Source: Gemmatimonadaceae bacterium (GTDB lineage: Bacteria > Gemmatimonadota > Gemmatimonadetes > Gemmatimonadales > Gemmatimonadaceae). From it: 64,000 nucleotides of DNA. The translations under genes and the position numbers were made by a program. The notes below the pieces were generated by a model. The model was not told the DNA's origin, searched no databases, and saw only the letters and a list, made by a program, of their open reading frames with translations. The first letter of the stretch is position 1. The number at the start of each line of letters is the position of its first letter. Positions 4,978 to 57,355 of this stretch are shown in pieces. The stretch is from the NCBI GenBank assembly GCA_025931335.1, contig JAICNG010000001.1:20676-84675 (forward strand), in the 5' to 3' direction.

Positions 4978-5247
4978 GTGTCCCGAGCGTTCGTCAACGA
5001 AGACGCCGGCGGCGGGCCGCGTCGCCGCTTCTCGCTTCCGCCGCGTGACCACCCAGAGTTCGACGCCGCCGCCGCGGCCGCGCTCCTCGAGGGCGCGCGC
5101 GAGGGTGCCACGGGGGACGCCGAGGAGGCCACCGGGTATCGCTGGGGCGAGCCGGGCCTCCATCCGCACGTCGCGCGCATCCTCGCGCGAGCGCGCGATG
5201 GAGGCGACGAGCGCCTCGCGCAGCTCGCGGAGCGCTTCCTCCGCTGA
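4978..5247 (+). CDS. Possible small hypothetical protein
   Basis: From GTG at 4978 the frame encodes 89 residues with balanced, protein-like composition (VSRAFVNEDAGG, then LPPRDHPEFDAA, then EEATGYRWGEPGLHPHVARIL), ending LAERFLR. The antisense frame is also open, and no family can be assigned with certainty, so this is a cautious call. The tandem word array lies immediately upstream and supplies the only GGAG-like ribosome binding site. Confidence 0.5.
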   Translation: MSRAFVNEDAGGGPRRRFSLPPRDHPEFDAAAAAALLEGAREGATGDAEEATGYRWGEPGLHPHVARILARARDGGDERLAQLAERFLR

Positions 5248-5305
5248 CGTGGCGTTGCGGGCAGGTCTCGCCCGCACTAAGGTAGGCGAGTCTCCGGGAG
5301 GACTC

Positions 5306-5662
5306 GTGCCCTACCAGAACTCGCCCATCACTGCGACGATGCCGTGCCGCTCGTGCGACACGGAGATTTCCGCCATTGCGCGCGAGTGCCCGTATTGCGG
5401 CGCGGAGCAGTTCGATACGCGAAGCAGCGCGCTGGCGATGCGCGACATGCCGAGCGAGCGGCGCGGCCTAACGGCTGGGCTGCTCTGCCTCCTGGTCGGC
5501 GTGTTCGGCGCCCACCGCTTCTACGTCGGCAAGCACGCCACCGGCTTCCTCATGCTCGTCACGCTGGGCGGGGTGGGCATCTGGTGGCTGGCCGACCTCA
5601 TCATGCTCATCACCGGGCAGTTCCGCGACAAGGATGGGCGTCGCGTGACTGAATGGATCTAA
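5306..5662 (+). CDS. Zinc-ribbon and TM2-domain membrane protein
   Basis: A GTG start sits 4 bases after GGGAGG. The 118-residue product begins with a CRSC...CPYC zinc ribbon (residues about 14-33), then a TM2 domain: hydrophobic helix GLLCLLVGVFGAHRFYVGK, a short turn, and GVGIWWLADLIMLITGQF. TM2 proteins are small two-helix membrane proteins of unknown function with the DxF/HRFY signature. The stop codon overlaps the start of the OsmC gene, so both are probably translated together. Confidence 0.85.
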   Translation: MPYQNSPITATMPCRSCDTEISAIARECPYCGAEQFDTRSSALAMRDMPSERRGLTAGLLCLLVGVFGAHRFYVGKHATGFLMLVTLGGVGIWWLADLIMLITGQFRDKDGRRVTEWI

Positions 5663-6108
5663 GCCCTCCGGCGCCGGCGCCTCGCGAATACGCGGTCGAC
5701 GCGCGCTCCACGGCGACGTTCGGCCGCGTGCTGTGCAGCGCGCGCATACATCATTTCATCATCGATGGGCCGGTGGCGAACGGATGTCCCGGCGAGGAGC
5801 TCACACCGCCGGAAGCGTTCCTCGCCGGCGTCGCGAGCTGCGGCGTCGAGCTGGTGCAGGTGATCGCGCGTGAGCAGTCGGTGCCGGTGGGCGACGTCAC
5901 GGTGAGGATTCAGGCCATCGTCGACCGAAGCAAACCGGTGCGACCCGACGTCACCCTGTTCAACTCCGTACGCATGCGGTTCACGCTTGCCGGCGTTCCC
6001 AGGGATCGCGCGGGGGGATTGATCGCGCAGTTCCAAAAGCGGTGACCGCTCTACGGCACGGTCGCGGTCGCGACCCCGGACGTAGCGGTAGAGTATGACG
6101 TGGTTTAG
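5653..6108 (+). CDS. OsmC family peroxiredoxin-like protein, candidate selenoprotein (in-frame TGA at 6043)
   Basis: OsmC/Ohr-family proteins reduce organic hydroperoxides with two cysteines. The first is visible in PPEAFLAGVASCGVELVQ (residue about 64). The frame meets TGA at 6043-6045, exactly where the second cysteine of the family's C-terminal RCPLYGT-like motif belongs, then continues PLYGTVAVATPDVAVEYDVV to a TAG at 6106. Truncation at the TGA would remove the last strand and the second active residue. A hairpin follows the TGA: CTACG (6051-6055) pairs with CGTAG (6081-6085) and GGTCGC (6060-6065) with GCGACC (6070-6075), leaving apical loop GGTC. This suits a bacterial SECIS, so residue 131 is probably selenocysteine. 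A nonsense mutation or read error is the alternative. Confidence 0.75.
6046..6093 (+). promoter_or_regulatory. Putative bacterial SECIS hairpin after the OsmC TGA
   Basis: A two-stage stem begins just after the TGA. The lower stem is CTACG/CGTAG (or the wider CTCTAC at 6049 with GTAGAG at 6088), then an internal loop, then a 6-bp GC stem with a 4-nt apical loop GGTC. The apical loop lies 20 nt after the TGA and begins with G, as required of bSECIS elements read by SelB. GC-rich DNA folds readily, so the structure alone is not proof. Confidence 0.5.
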
Positions 6109-6117
6109 CCTTCGAGC

Positions 6118-6663
6118 ATGACCGAGAATCGACACGAGGTCGCGACGCTTGCCGGCGGATGCTTCTGGTGTCTCGACGCCGCGTTTCGTCTCCTCAAGGG
6201 CGTGACGAAGGTGGAGTCGGGGTACGCGGGTGGCATCCGGCCGAACCCGACCTACGAGCAGGTGTGCACCGGGGCGACCGGGCATGCCGAAGTCGCGCAG
6301 GTGACGTTCGACCCGTCCGTCATCACGTACCGCGACCTTCTCGACGTGTTCTTCACGATTCACGATCCCACGCAGCTCAACCGCCAGGGCGCCGACGTCG
6401 GTACGCAGTATCGCTCCGCGGTCTTTCCTCACAACGAGGAGCAGCGCGCGGAGGCCGAGCGTGCGATCAAGGAGCTCGAAGCGACGCGGGCGTGGGACGC
6501 GCCGATCGTGACCACCATCGAGCCGATGAAGGCGTTCTATCCCGCTGAGACGTATCACCAGGATTACTACGCGCGAAACCCGCGGCAGTCGTACTGTCAG
6601 GCCGTGATCGCGCCGAAGATCGCGAAGCTGCGCAAGATGCACTTCGAGCGCCTGGCGGTCTGA
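6118..6663 (+). CDS. msrA: Peptide-methionine (S)-S-oxide reductase
   Basis: MsrA repairs oxidised methionine in proteins. [12 protein letters not shown] at residues 12-23 holds the catalytic cysteine, encoded here by ordinary [16 protein letters not shown] and DVGTQYRS are substrate-binding signatures, and the resolving cysteine lies in RQSYCQAVI. The 181 residues are full length, with no fused MsrB. It follows the OsmC gene by 9 bases after the second stop, so the two oxidative-stress enzymes may share a transcript. Confidence 0.95.
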
Positions 6664-6676
6664 CCAAGGCACGCGC

Positions 6677-7096
6677 ATGACGGCGACGCTCGAGGAATCA
6701 GCCGACCGTCACCGGTGGACGTTCGACGCGCACCACGTCACGCGGCTCTGCGTCGAGCCCTCGGCGATGCGCATCGAGACGTGGACGCTCGAGGCGTCGG
6801 CGGAGGTGCGCATCGCGGCACCCTTCCGCTACCGAGAGCCGGACGGCTCCGAGCGCGCGATCGATCCCGGGGAGCCGGAGCGACTGGCGCCACTGCTCGG
6901 CCTCCTCCAGTGCCGGCTCGAGTGGTTCGAGGTGGTACGCGCCGGCGAGATCACGCTCCGCTTCGGCGACGGGTCGGAGCTGCGGTGCGCCCCGCGCGGC
7001 CGCGGCGCCACGTGGGAGGTGCGAGGTGGCGGCGCCCTCGAGGGAATCGAGTACCGCGGCGCGAGCGGTGAGCCCCCGTGGACGACACGAGCATAG
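6677..7096 (+). CDS. Hypothetical protein
   Basis: The 139-residue soluble protein begins MTATLEESADRHRWTFDAHH and is rich in beta-strand-like segments (MRIETWTLEASAEVRI, then GEITLRFGDGSELRCAP). The layout recalls small DUF6188-like proteins, but I cannot assign it firmly. It lies 13 bases after msrA on the same strand and converges with the VOC gene at 7103. Confidence 0.65.
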   Translation: MTATLEESADRHRWTFDAHHVTRLCVEPSAMRIETWTLEASAEVRIAAPFRYREPDGSERAIDPGEPERLAPLLGLLQCRLEWFEVVRAGEITLRFGDGSELRCAPRGRGATWEVRGGGALEGIEYRGASGEPPWTTRA

Positions 7097-8795: not shown

Positions 8796-9880
8796 CCGCG
8801 AGCGTGTCCCCTCCCTCCGTGAGCCGGCCGCGTCGCGGCCTGCGGGAGCATCCCCTCACACAGCTCGTGAAGGTGCGCTTCCTCGAGTTCTGGCGAGAGC
8901 CCGAGGCGGTGTTCTGGGTTTTCATCTTTCCCATCCTCCTGGCGGCGGGGCTCGGCATCGCGTTTCGCCAGCGGGCTCCCGATGTCGTGAAGGTGGGCGT
9001 GCTCGTCTCGGAGCCGCACGCGGGCGCGCTCAGCGATGCGATCGCGCGCGATTCCCGCCTCGATGTCCTCCCGCTCGATGACAGCGCGGGGATGCACGCG
9101 TTGCGCACTGGACGCATCGCGCTGTTCGTCGTGCCGCGCGCCGAGCGAACCGTCGAGTATCGCTATGATGACACGCGCCCGGACGCGCGGAACGCACGCC
9201 TGCTGGTGGACGACGCCATCCAGCGCGCCGCGGGACGGAGCGACGTCGCGACCGTGCGCGAGCGGCACGTGCGGGAGCCCGGAGCGCGCTACATCGACTT
9301 CGTCGTTCCCGGTCTCCTGGCGATGAACCTGATGGGAAGCGGGATCTGGGGTGTGGGATTCACGATCGTCGAATCGCGCCGGAAGAAGCTGCTGAAGCGG
9401 CTCATCGCGACACCGATGTCGCGCGCCCAGTTCCTCGCATCGTTCATCCTGTCGCGCCTGGCGATGCTCGTGCTGGAGGTGGGCGCGTTCCTCGGATTCG
9501 GCATCCTGGTGTTCGGTGTACCCGCCCGCGGCTCGCTGGGAACGCTGGTCCTGGTCGCGCTGACCTCCGCACTGGCGTTCAGCGCGCTCGGACTGCTCGT
9601 CGCCTCACGGGTCCGCACGATGGAGGGTGCGTCGGGCCTGATGAACCTCGTGATGCTCCCGATGTGGATCTTCTCGGGCGTGTTCTTTTCGGCGTCGCGA
9701 TTCCCCGATGCCGCGCAGCCGGTCATTCAAGCGCTTCCGCTCACCGCGGCGGCGGACGCGCTCCGCGCCACGCTGCTCGAGGGCGCGTCGCTTTCGGCGC
9801 TGGCGGGCGAGCTGGGTATTCTCGCCGCGTGGCTGGTGGGGGGCTTCACAGCCGCGCTGGCGCTGTTCCGCTGGCGGTGA
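8792..9880 (+). CDS. ABC-2 type transporter permease
   Basis: ATG at 8792 overlaps the ATPase stop and follows GAGGGAGG. The 362-residue protein has an N-terminal membrane helix (VFWVFIFPILLAAGLGIAF), a soluble extracytoplasmic region of about 150 residues, then a five-helix ABC-2 membrane block from VPGLLAMNLMGSGIWGVGF to AAWLVGGFTAALALF. RRKKLLKRLIATPMSR is the conserved coupling segment. It pairs with the preceding ATPase. Confidence 0.9.
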   Translation: MTASVSPPSVSRPRRGLREHPLTQLVKVRFLEFWREPEAVFWVFIFPILLAAGLGIAFRQRAPDVVKVGVLVSEPHAGALSDAIARDSRLDVLPLDDSAGMHALRTGRIALFVVPRAERTVEYRYDDTRPDARNARLLVDDAIQRAAGRSDVATVRERHVREPGARYIDFVVPGLLAMNLMGSGIWGVGFTIVESRRKKLLKRLIATPMSRAQFLASFILSRLAMLVLEVGAFLGFGILVFGVPARGSLGTLVLVALTSALAFSALGLLVASRVRTMEGASGLMNLVMLPMWIFSGVFFSASRFPDAAQPVIQALPLTAAADALRATLLEGASLSALAGELGILAAWLVGGFTAALALFRWR

Positions 9881-55750: not shown

Positions 55751-57355
55751 TTACCTCCTGACGGTGGGGAGGCCCGCGTCGACCCACGCGCGCCATCCGC
55801 CCACGAGGGGGCGCACGTCGGTCCATCCAGCCGCTCTCAGCTCGCGCGCCACCCGGGCGCTCGTGGCTTCGTCGACTCACGCACAGTACACGACGAGCGA
55901 GCCATGCTGGTCGAGTCCCAGCTCCTTCGCCGCTCGGACCGCGTCATTCGGTGGCAGCCGGATGGCGTCGCGCGCCATGCGGTCGTCCTGCTCCCAGGTG
56001 CGCTCCGACCGCGCGTCGACAATGGTCAGCCGCTCACCGCGATCGAGGCGGGCGCGCATCTCGTCGATGGTGATCGGCGTCGCGTCGGCCTCCGGCGATG
56101 GAGGCTGAGCGGCGAGGGACTCTTTGGGGTGAGCGTGCTCACGCCTCGCTCTTCCTTCCTCGTTCGACGCTCGTGCATCCCGCCGCAACCAGATCGCGAT
56201 CCCGCTTCCGTGCAGCACCACCGACAGCAGCACGACGAGGCAGGTGATCGCGAACAGGGGGGCCGCGCCCGGCATGCCCGCGAACACGGGCAGCAGCACG
56301 AGGAGGAGCGAGCTGAGTCCCCGGGGGCCGAGCCATGCGATGAGCCGGCGATCCCGTTGGTCGAGTCCCGCGCGCGCAAGGACGGGGTACAGCGTCGCGG
56401 TTCGAACGATCAGCGCGAACGCGGTAAAGATGAGGGTGCGCCCATCGGCGACGTCGAACCCCGTCCACAGCAGCGCCGCGCCGAAGGCGACGAACGTCAG
56501 CAGCAGGAACATCTCGGCCGTCGCCTCGCCGAACTCGAGGAAGCAGTCGCACAGCTCGAGGTCCTGCACGGCGATGACGAGCCCAGCCGCGAACGCGGCG
56601 AGGAAACCGCTTCCCCCCACACTCTCCGCCAGCGCGAACGCGGTGAACGCAATGCCGAGCGCGTAGAGGGACTCGTAGTCTCGCCGAACCCCGACGCGGT
56701 CGCGCACGCGCACCAGCGCGATGATGCCGATCCACCCGACGAGGGCGCCGATGAGCGGGCCGAGCAGGAACATCCCGACGATGCTGCGCGAGAGTCTCAG
56801 CGCGATGTCGCCCTCGCCGGGCATCGCGAGCAGCATCGCGACGATGACGATCGGGAGCAGGACCGCATCGTTCATCCCGCTTTCCATGCGCAGCGCCACG
56901 CGGGTGGTCGCCGGCAATCGTCGGTGGCGAAGCACGGTGCGCAGCAACACCGGATCGGTCGACGCGAGCGCTGCCCCGAGAATCGCCGCATGCGGAAGGC
57001 TCACCGACAAGAGTAGATGCGCCGCGCCCGCGATGAGCGCCGCGACAATGACCGTTCCGGGGCCGAGGATGAGCAGCGCGAGCCTCCGCTGCTCTCGCAG
57101 CGCGCGCGTATCGACGGAGATCGCGTCGCTGAACAGCACGAGCACGAGCGCCAGCGTGGCGATGACGCGGAGCGCCGGCGAGTCGAGACCGACATCGACC
57201 AGCCCGAGACCCCACGGCCCCAGCGCGGCACCCAGGGCGAGGAAGATCGCCACCTGTGGAATGCCGCTCCGCTCGACTGCCCCGGAGAGCAGCGACGAAA
57301 CGACGATGACGATCCCGATGAGCGCGAGGAGAGACGCGAACTCGTGCACGGACAC
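55751..57355 (-). CDS. Cation/proton antiporter fused to a rhodanese domain, candidate selenoprotein (in-frame TGA at 55879-55877)
   Basis: Residues about 1-390 are an NhaP/CPA1-type antiporter (RMESGMNDAVLLPIVIVAML with the ion-binding ND pair; SGFLAAFAAGLVIAVQDLE). A linker leads to a rhodanese domain: ITIDEMRARLDRGERLTIVD, ARSERTWEQDDRM, then GSLVVYCA followed by TGA. The frame continues VDEATSARVARELRAAGWTD and VRPLVGGWRAWVDAGLP to TAA at 55753-55751. The TGA falls where relatives read YCxC, so it replaces the second cysteine. The hairpin GCGCC/GGCGC with loop CGGGT lies 16 nt after the TGA. Without readthrough the rhodanese lacks about half its fold. GTG at 57355 is the start. Confidence 0.75.
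55846..55876 (-). promoter_or_regulatory. Putative bacterial SECIS hairpin after the rhodanese TGA
   Basis: Reading the minus strand, the 16 bases after the TGA lead into GCGCC (55860-55856), loop CGGGT, and GGCGC (55850-55846); outer AGC/GCT pairing can extend it. The loop is 21 nt from the TGA and has G at its second position, within bSECIS limits. Chance GC-rich folding cannot be excluded. Confidence 0.4.

Follow-up and report, generated by a model that had tools for sequence, protein, structure and literature searches.

In the peroxidases proper of the Ohr/OsmC family, organic hydroperoxides are reduced with a lipoylated reductant; both cysteines are needed, and the intramolecular disulfide is reduced by lipoylated proteins, as described in the covered parts of the source (PMC8945050). 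OsmC-like selenoproteins are characterized by the motif UxxT, according to the covered parts of reports from 2005, 2008, 2022 and 2026 (PMC1088965, PMC2398784, PMC9312934, PMC13188914). NF041052 (OsmC_like_Se) was the only OsmC (seleno)protein model matched in NCBIfam 20.0, and from the motif we infer that it corresponds to the published UxxT family (Sargasso Sea 2005). Its members above the cut-off (L118, L119 and L145) contain one TGA each, located at the first cysteine (FULLT, FUMFS and FULLT, respectively), while the second stays Cys (GCY/GCH/GCF). Two of the three fit UxxT exactly and the third has S for T. Another OsmC lineage, from the same phylum as the locus described here, comprises 13 loci (L105–L117; four aligned) with AUTSMT, AUMSMT or near variants at the first cysteine; these scored 38.9–53.8 bits on NF041052, below the cut-off. 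A second TGA in L105–L107 looks like an ordinary stop.

The window analysed here, a 64,000-nucleotide stretch of DNA from a soil-type Gemmatimonadaceae bacterium, harbors an OsmC-family gene with an in-frame TGA. The window family resembles UxxT/NF041052 in its OsmC fold (PF02566), the UGA for one conserved cysteine and the predicted redox role. In contrast to that family, which combines Sec at the first with Cys at the second position, it has Cys first and predicted Sec second (UPLY). Likewise, it shares with the AUTSMT lineage the OsmC family, the in-frame TGA for Cys and, judged by eye, a hairpin-like sequence past the TGA, but differs from it since Sec of that lineage lies at the first cysteine and the second Cys is kept as CPVH. 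Thus, Sec at the first cysteine is found in two OsmC lineages and predicted Sec at the second in the window family. The window protein reached 25.2 bits on NF041052, below the cut-off of 95. The initial annotation had listed OsmC-like proteins among the predicted bacterial selenoproteins and could not place Sec at the second cysteine; this doubt is resolved by the first-cysteine Sec of the catalogued OsmC selenoprotein.

A 2026 review assigns selenoproteins that differ in Sec position or motif to separate subfamilies and contains, in the parts covered, a single OsmC row (PMC13188914). Because subfamilies are split in this way, the window family appears to be a new OsmC selenoprotein subfamily. 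It is absent from the covered parts of the family table of the 2026 prokaryotic inventory, and a second-cysteine OsmC selenoprotein was not found in the titles, opening lines of abstracts and text passages covered for OsmC/Ohr or Gemmatimonadetes selenoproteins. The window family would add a Sec-containing OsmC subfamily, distributed across six phyla and scoring below the NF041052 cut-off.

The osmC gene, its fold and the putative redox pair

The predicted selenoprotein gene (5653..6108, plus strand) starts with ATG at 5653, reaches the TGA at 6043–6045, continues with PLYGTVAVATPDVAVEYDVV and terminates at TAG 6106–6108, 20 further codons downstream of the TGA, in agreement with the coordinates proposed initially. 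Its product would comprise 151 residues with Sec at position 131; standard annotation would probably truncate it at the TGA. Assignment to the OsmC family is based on a match to Pfam PF02566 (39.8 bits; gathering score 27.5) and on 46 distinct homologous loci. Within its own genome, the only osmC match at E <= 0.01 was the gene itself.

An AlphaFold2 model calculated from a 34-row alignment, which contained 34 of the 45 usable sequences, had a pLDDT of 88.7, and the Foldseek matches listed (50 of 58 with E <= 0.001) were OsmC/Ohr-type or unnamed structural-genomics entries. In sequence profiles both redox positions of the window protein aligned with both cysteines of solved Ohr chains: the TGC codon at 5839..5841 (plus strand) encodes Cys63, aligned with the first active-site Cys, and the TGA at 6043..6045 (plus strand) occupies residue 131, the second cysteine of the pair. 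Both residues, Cys63 and C/U131, were invariant across the 34 aligned homologues, as was the U/C-P-L motif at positions 131–133. Fold, two-cysteine layout and the CP motif at the second Cys are thus common to the window protein and the Ohr/OsmC thiol peroxidases, which differ from it in having a second Cys in place of the predicted Sec and a Glu ten rather than nine residues before the first Cys. The Ohr-type Glu, compared with alignment rows 9jx6 and 6mjn, is absent, and an invariant Glu54 sits nine residues before Cys63; the same spacing of nine occurs in another OsmC-like row (L120). In its layout the window protein is closer to COG1765/YhfA-like proteins than to Ohr/OsmC.

We are highly confident that the gene encodes an OsmC-family redox protein in which UGA131 specifies Sec by means of SelB, tRNA-Sec and a downstream hairpin, and in which Sec131 pairs with Cys63. 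The product would be a small, antioxidant-type thiol/selenol redox protein of the COG1765/YhfA-like type, whose UGA codon 131 would be decoded by SelB and tRNA-Sec under guidance of a GU-tipped hairpin of 7 bp, situated 14 nt downstream inside the coding sequence. Sec131 and Cys63 would form the redox pair that consists of two cysteines in OsmC/Ohr proteins. Most likely, one of the two residues would reduce a peroxide or another oxidised substrate, a Cys63–Sec131 S-Se bridge (selenenylsulfide) would then form, and a cellular dithiol would reopen it. With the Ohr-type Glu missing and the invariant Glu nine residues before the first Cys, a peroxide is no more than a plausible substrate. The analysis directly shows the conserved exchange of TGA and Cys, the covarying hairpin, the Sec machinery and the fold; that Sec is inserted and bridged to Cys63, which of the two residues does what, and which substrate and reductant take part are steps that we infer.

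By homology, Cys63 would be the attacking and Sec131 the resolving residue, but the reverse is possible. Sec usually takes the attacking role in well-studied selenoenzymes, and a selenoprotein with inverted OsmC roles, in which Sec131 attacks the substrate and Cys63 resolves, would fit this rule as well as the lack of the Glu at its Ohr position and the strict conservation of U/C-P-L. However, Cys63 is equally invariant and located at the place of the Ohr/OsmC attacking Cys, and other OsmC lineages carry Sec at the first place. We regard the inverted roles as a serious, if rather doubtful, possibility. As for Cys63 as attacking residue, we tentatively propose, with confidence just short of even, that Sec can be placed on either partner of the redox pair of one fold and that the window family bears it on the resolving instead of the attacking residue. 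If true, the gain would lie in the S-Se bridge itself, which is fast, reversible and safe from over-oxidation, whichever side bears the selenium. The position swap between subfamilies offers a natural experiment on why one redox residue carries selenium while its partner does not.

Conservation of the TGA codon among homologues

A search of the phylum yielded 9 out of 249 genomes with a close homologue, and a scan of genome contigs reduced 63 candidate stretches to 42 loci. Among the 46 distinct close homologues that remained after removal of five duplicates, 39 displayed TGA at the codon in question and six a Cys codon, TGC or TGT (L006, L009, L035, L043, L049 and L050); the remaining one (L072) ends before this codon. 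Duplicates (L033, L034, L039, L054 and L069) and the truncated L072 were left out of the hairpin counts, and trees were calculated with a single copy per duplicate and without L072. A later family search of 179 genomes revealed 13 carriers; the single new one (L158) represents the 40th TGA locus and has the same hairpin. The column therefore holds either Cys or TGA, consistent with the proposal that the TGA replaces the second redox cysteine, and the suggested alignment of the TGA opposite Cys in homologues was obtained. Degradation of the frame in close relatives, named at the outset as evidence against Sec, was not observed in these sequences: both flanks of the TGA are intact and conserved.

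These data bear directly on the view that translation truly ends at the TGA, or that the TGA results from sequencing error or decay, leaving either a 130-residue protein without its last strand or a pseudogene. Such a view would be in line with standard annotation, which would end the gene at the TGA, and with the nature of the source genome, a MAG-like draft assembly (3.73 Mb, 189 contigs, 81% completeness). But the same TGA recurs in 39 of the 45 distinct loci in which the codon is covered, in separate assemblies from six phyla; residues past the TGA are conserved in the relatives, with a stop at a similar distance, and six loci have Cys. Moreover, the hairpin covaries at synonymous sites in the TGA forms only. 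A real stop, a sequencing error or decay is consequently very improbable.

Judged from the titles of public records, TGA forms are present in Gemmatimonadota, Pseudomonadota, Myxococcota, Acidobacteriota, Actinomycetota and Chloroflexota. Those from Pseudomonadota are betaproteobacterial MAGs, and the same-phylum relatives are recorded as Gemmatimonadaceae or Gemmatimonadetes. One carrier of the gene is a named strain, Anaeromyxobacter soli SG29 (L067). Two MAG contigs titled Bordetella parapertussis (L058 and L061) group with other betaproteobacterial MAGs in the tree, and their title is apparently a wrong label for environmental MAGs. The 45-row tree requires two Sec/Cys changes, both within the clade holding the Gemmatimonadota. 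Since the Cys forms are nested within the Sec forms (under midpoint rooting only and with some weak joins), the tree suggests two losses of Sec in the history of the family. The occurrence in many phyla without shared neighbour genes suggests that the gene may have been transferred.

The hairpin downstream of the TGA codon

The SECIS of E. coli fdhF is a short hairpin near the UGA with GU in its apical loop. A comparable hairpin is predicted at 6060..6075 (plus strand), 14 nt past the TGA of osmC, with arms at 6060–6066 and 6069–6075 and a GU tip at 6067–6068. Both are short hairpins within about 40 nt of the UGA; in contrast to the fdhF element, that of osmC is a clean 7-bp upper stem, and no conserved lower stem or bulge was seen. 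The initial annotation had described a two-stage hairpin with a GGTC loop. Such a structure is present in the window sequence and its upper stem is conserved, but conservation is limited to 6060–6075, and no covariation of the outer lower-stem pairs was found across homologues. A gathering-score search of the window against Rfam gave no match.

Folding of the single sequence gave no significance (z = -1.15; 26 of 200 shuffles equally stable) and was replaced by comparative tests. The weak score is partly explained by the peptide TVAVAT, which alone dictates four of the seven pairs. In all 39 TGA sequences the seven pairs form and the tip is GU; each of the 273 pair cells is standard and 270 are Watson-Crick. 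In the six Cys forms 23 of 42 pair cells are Watson-Crick, and the full 7-bp hairpin is kept in none. When codons were replaced by random synonymous ones, the full stem formed in 3.4 sequences on average and never in more than 9 of the 39, compared with 39 observed. The covariation score of 0.439, obtained from 34 distinct rows, was reached by none of 500 shuffles (0.165 ± 0.019) and fell to 0.116 or below when the partners were shifted by one to three columns.

In three of the pairs both partners are third codon bases, and these pairs exist as G-C or C-G, as C-G or U-A, and as G-C, A-U or C-G, respectively, while the peptide is nearly constant. On the tree of TGA forms the two-sided changes at these wobble pairs amount to approximately 1, 4 and 6, approximately 11 altogether. 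The complete set of three wobble pairs is found in all 39 TGA forms and in none of the six Cys forms (Fisher p = 1.2e-7, a value that ignores relatedness). The structured element proposed just past the TGA thus covaries, and does so in TGA forms only. That the stem is retained in TGA forms and not in Cys forms is the strongest evidence for the predicted Sec decoding.

It is very improbable that the hairpin is a mere by-product of the palindrome-like peptide and of GC-rich codon use with no role in decoding. The four pairs that follow from the amino acids and the single-sequence z value would be expected of a by-product. Yet the hairpin is missing from Cys forms whose peptide is identical or similar, random synonymous codons fall far behind the observed number of full stems, and the compensatory changes are found at wobble sites.

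Selenocysteine machinery and the gene neighbourhood

The search for selA, selB, selC and selD recommended in the initial annotation detected all four in the source genome, so that the absence of a Sec system, which would have spoken against the selenoprotein, does not apply. The tRNA-Sec scored 73 bits and was assigned the anticodon TCA by ARAGORN; selB was matched with 294 bits (316 including a second piece) and selD with 383 bits. The latter contains its own in-frame TGA (CAGU) and lies approximately 100 bp from the tRNA-Sec gene; selD loci with this TGA are L028 (G000:C74:8073-8990) and L016. The selA gene was recovered in two pieces at contig ends (G000:C165:3-875 and G000:C134:3-773), whose matches overlap mid-gene as at an assembly break. 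Matches to tRNA-Sec were restricted to those above the gathering score because at loose E-values every one of the 14 control genomes gave a match.

Among the genomes surveyed, selA was detected in 34 of 39 TGA-form genomes, in 4 of the 6 Cys-form genomes and in the genome of the truncated locus. Since selA is widespread in the phylum (189 of 249 genomes sampled), its presence in the source genome alone is weak evidence, and the co-occurrence of selA with the TGA form is consistent with Sec decoding but not strong proof. In the five TGA-form genomes in which selA was not found, tRNA-Sec was likewise not found in four (G307, G308, G324 and G334), which are MAGs according to their record titles, and was present in the fifth. 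G324 shares an identical 60-nt sequence with G672, a genome rated 72% complete, and corresponds to it. The two Cys-form genomes lacking selA were G302, with tRNA-Sec, and G224, without it.

Owing to the exchange of TGA and Cys, the retention of the hairpin in TGA forms and the Sec machinery in the genome, we conclude from sequence comparison that osmC is a predicted selenoprotein gene with a SECIS element, the internal TGA of which is very probably read as selenocysteine. A genome-wide reassignment of UGA or its decoding by another tRNA, for which no support was found, is scarcely credible, as TGA serves as stop in neighbouring genes, e.g. msrA at 6661–6663, relatives have Cys at this codon instead of Trp or Gly, and the Sec system is present.

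This msrA gene (peptide methionine sulfoxide reductase; 6118..6663, plus strand; PF01625, 228 bits) starts 9 nt past the osmC stop, and the two genes are probably co-transcribed in the source genome. The arrangement was found elsewhere only in a same-genus relative (L002), with the same downstream start. Upstream, a zinc-ribbon/TM2-domain gene (5045–5662, plus strand) overlaps the osmC start by 10 nt. Downstream of msrA lies a gene for a DUF6188 protein (6677–7096, plus strand), which is also located near osmC in L033 and L037. Large neighbour clusters in the comparison of 45 loci turned out to be osmC itself and shadow frames. No conserved neighbourhood was found across these loci; because real neighbours recur only within small clades, we do not claim a partner gene.

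Elsewhere in the window, an in-frame TGA at 9878 (plus strand) passed the coding and hairpin filter, but its sequence was judged to be an ordinary stop followed by a new ORF. The second TGA-for-Cys case mentioned for the window corresponds to a TGA on the minus strand at 55879, within SLVVYCA-U-VDEATSARVARELRAAGWTDVRPLVGGWRAW. It belongs to a rhodanese-like domain with a YCAU motif (55754–56329, minus strand), a candidate selenoprotein of the NF041203 type. The fragment, predicted to be a selenoprotein of known kind, reached 38.6 bits with Pfam Rhodanese and 91 bits with NF041203 rhodanese_LYCAU (cut-off 115). The upstream part of the 55754–56329 region displayed a weak likeness to the C-terminal end of a model for potassium/proton antiporters.
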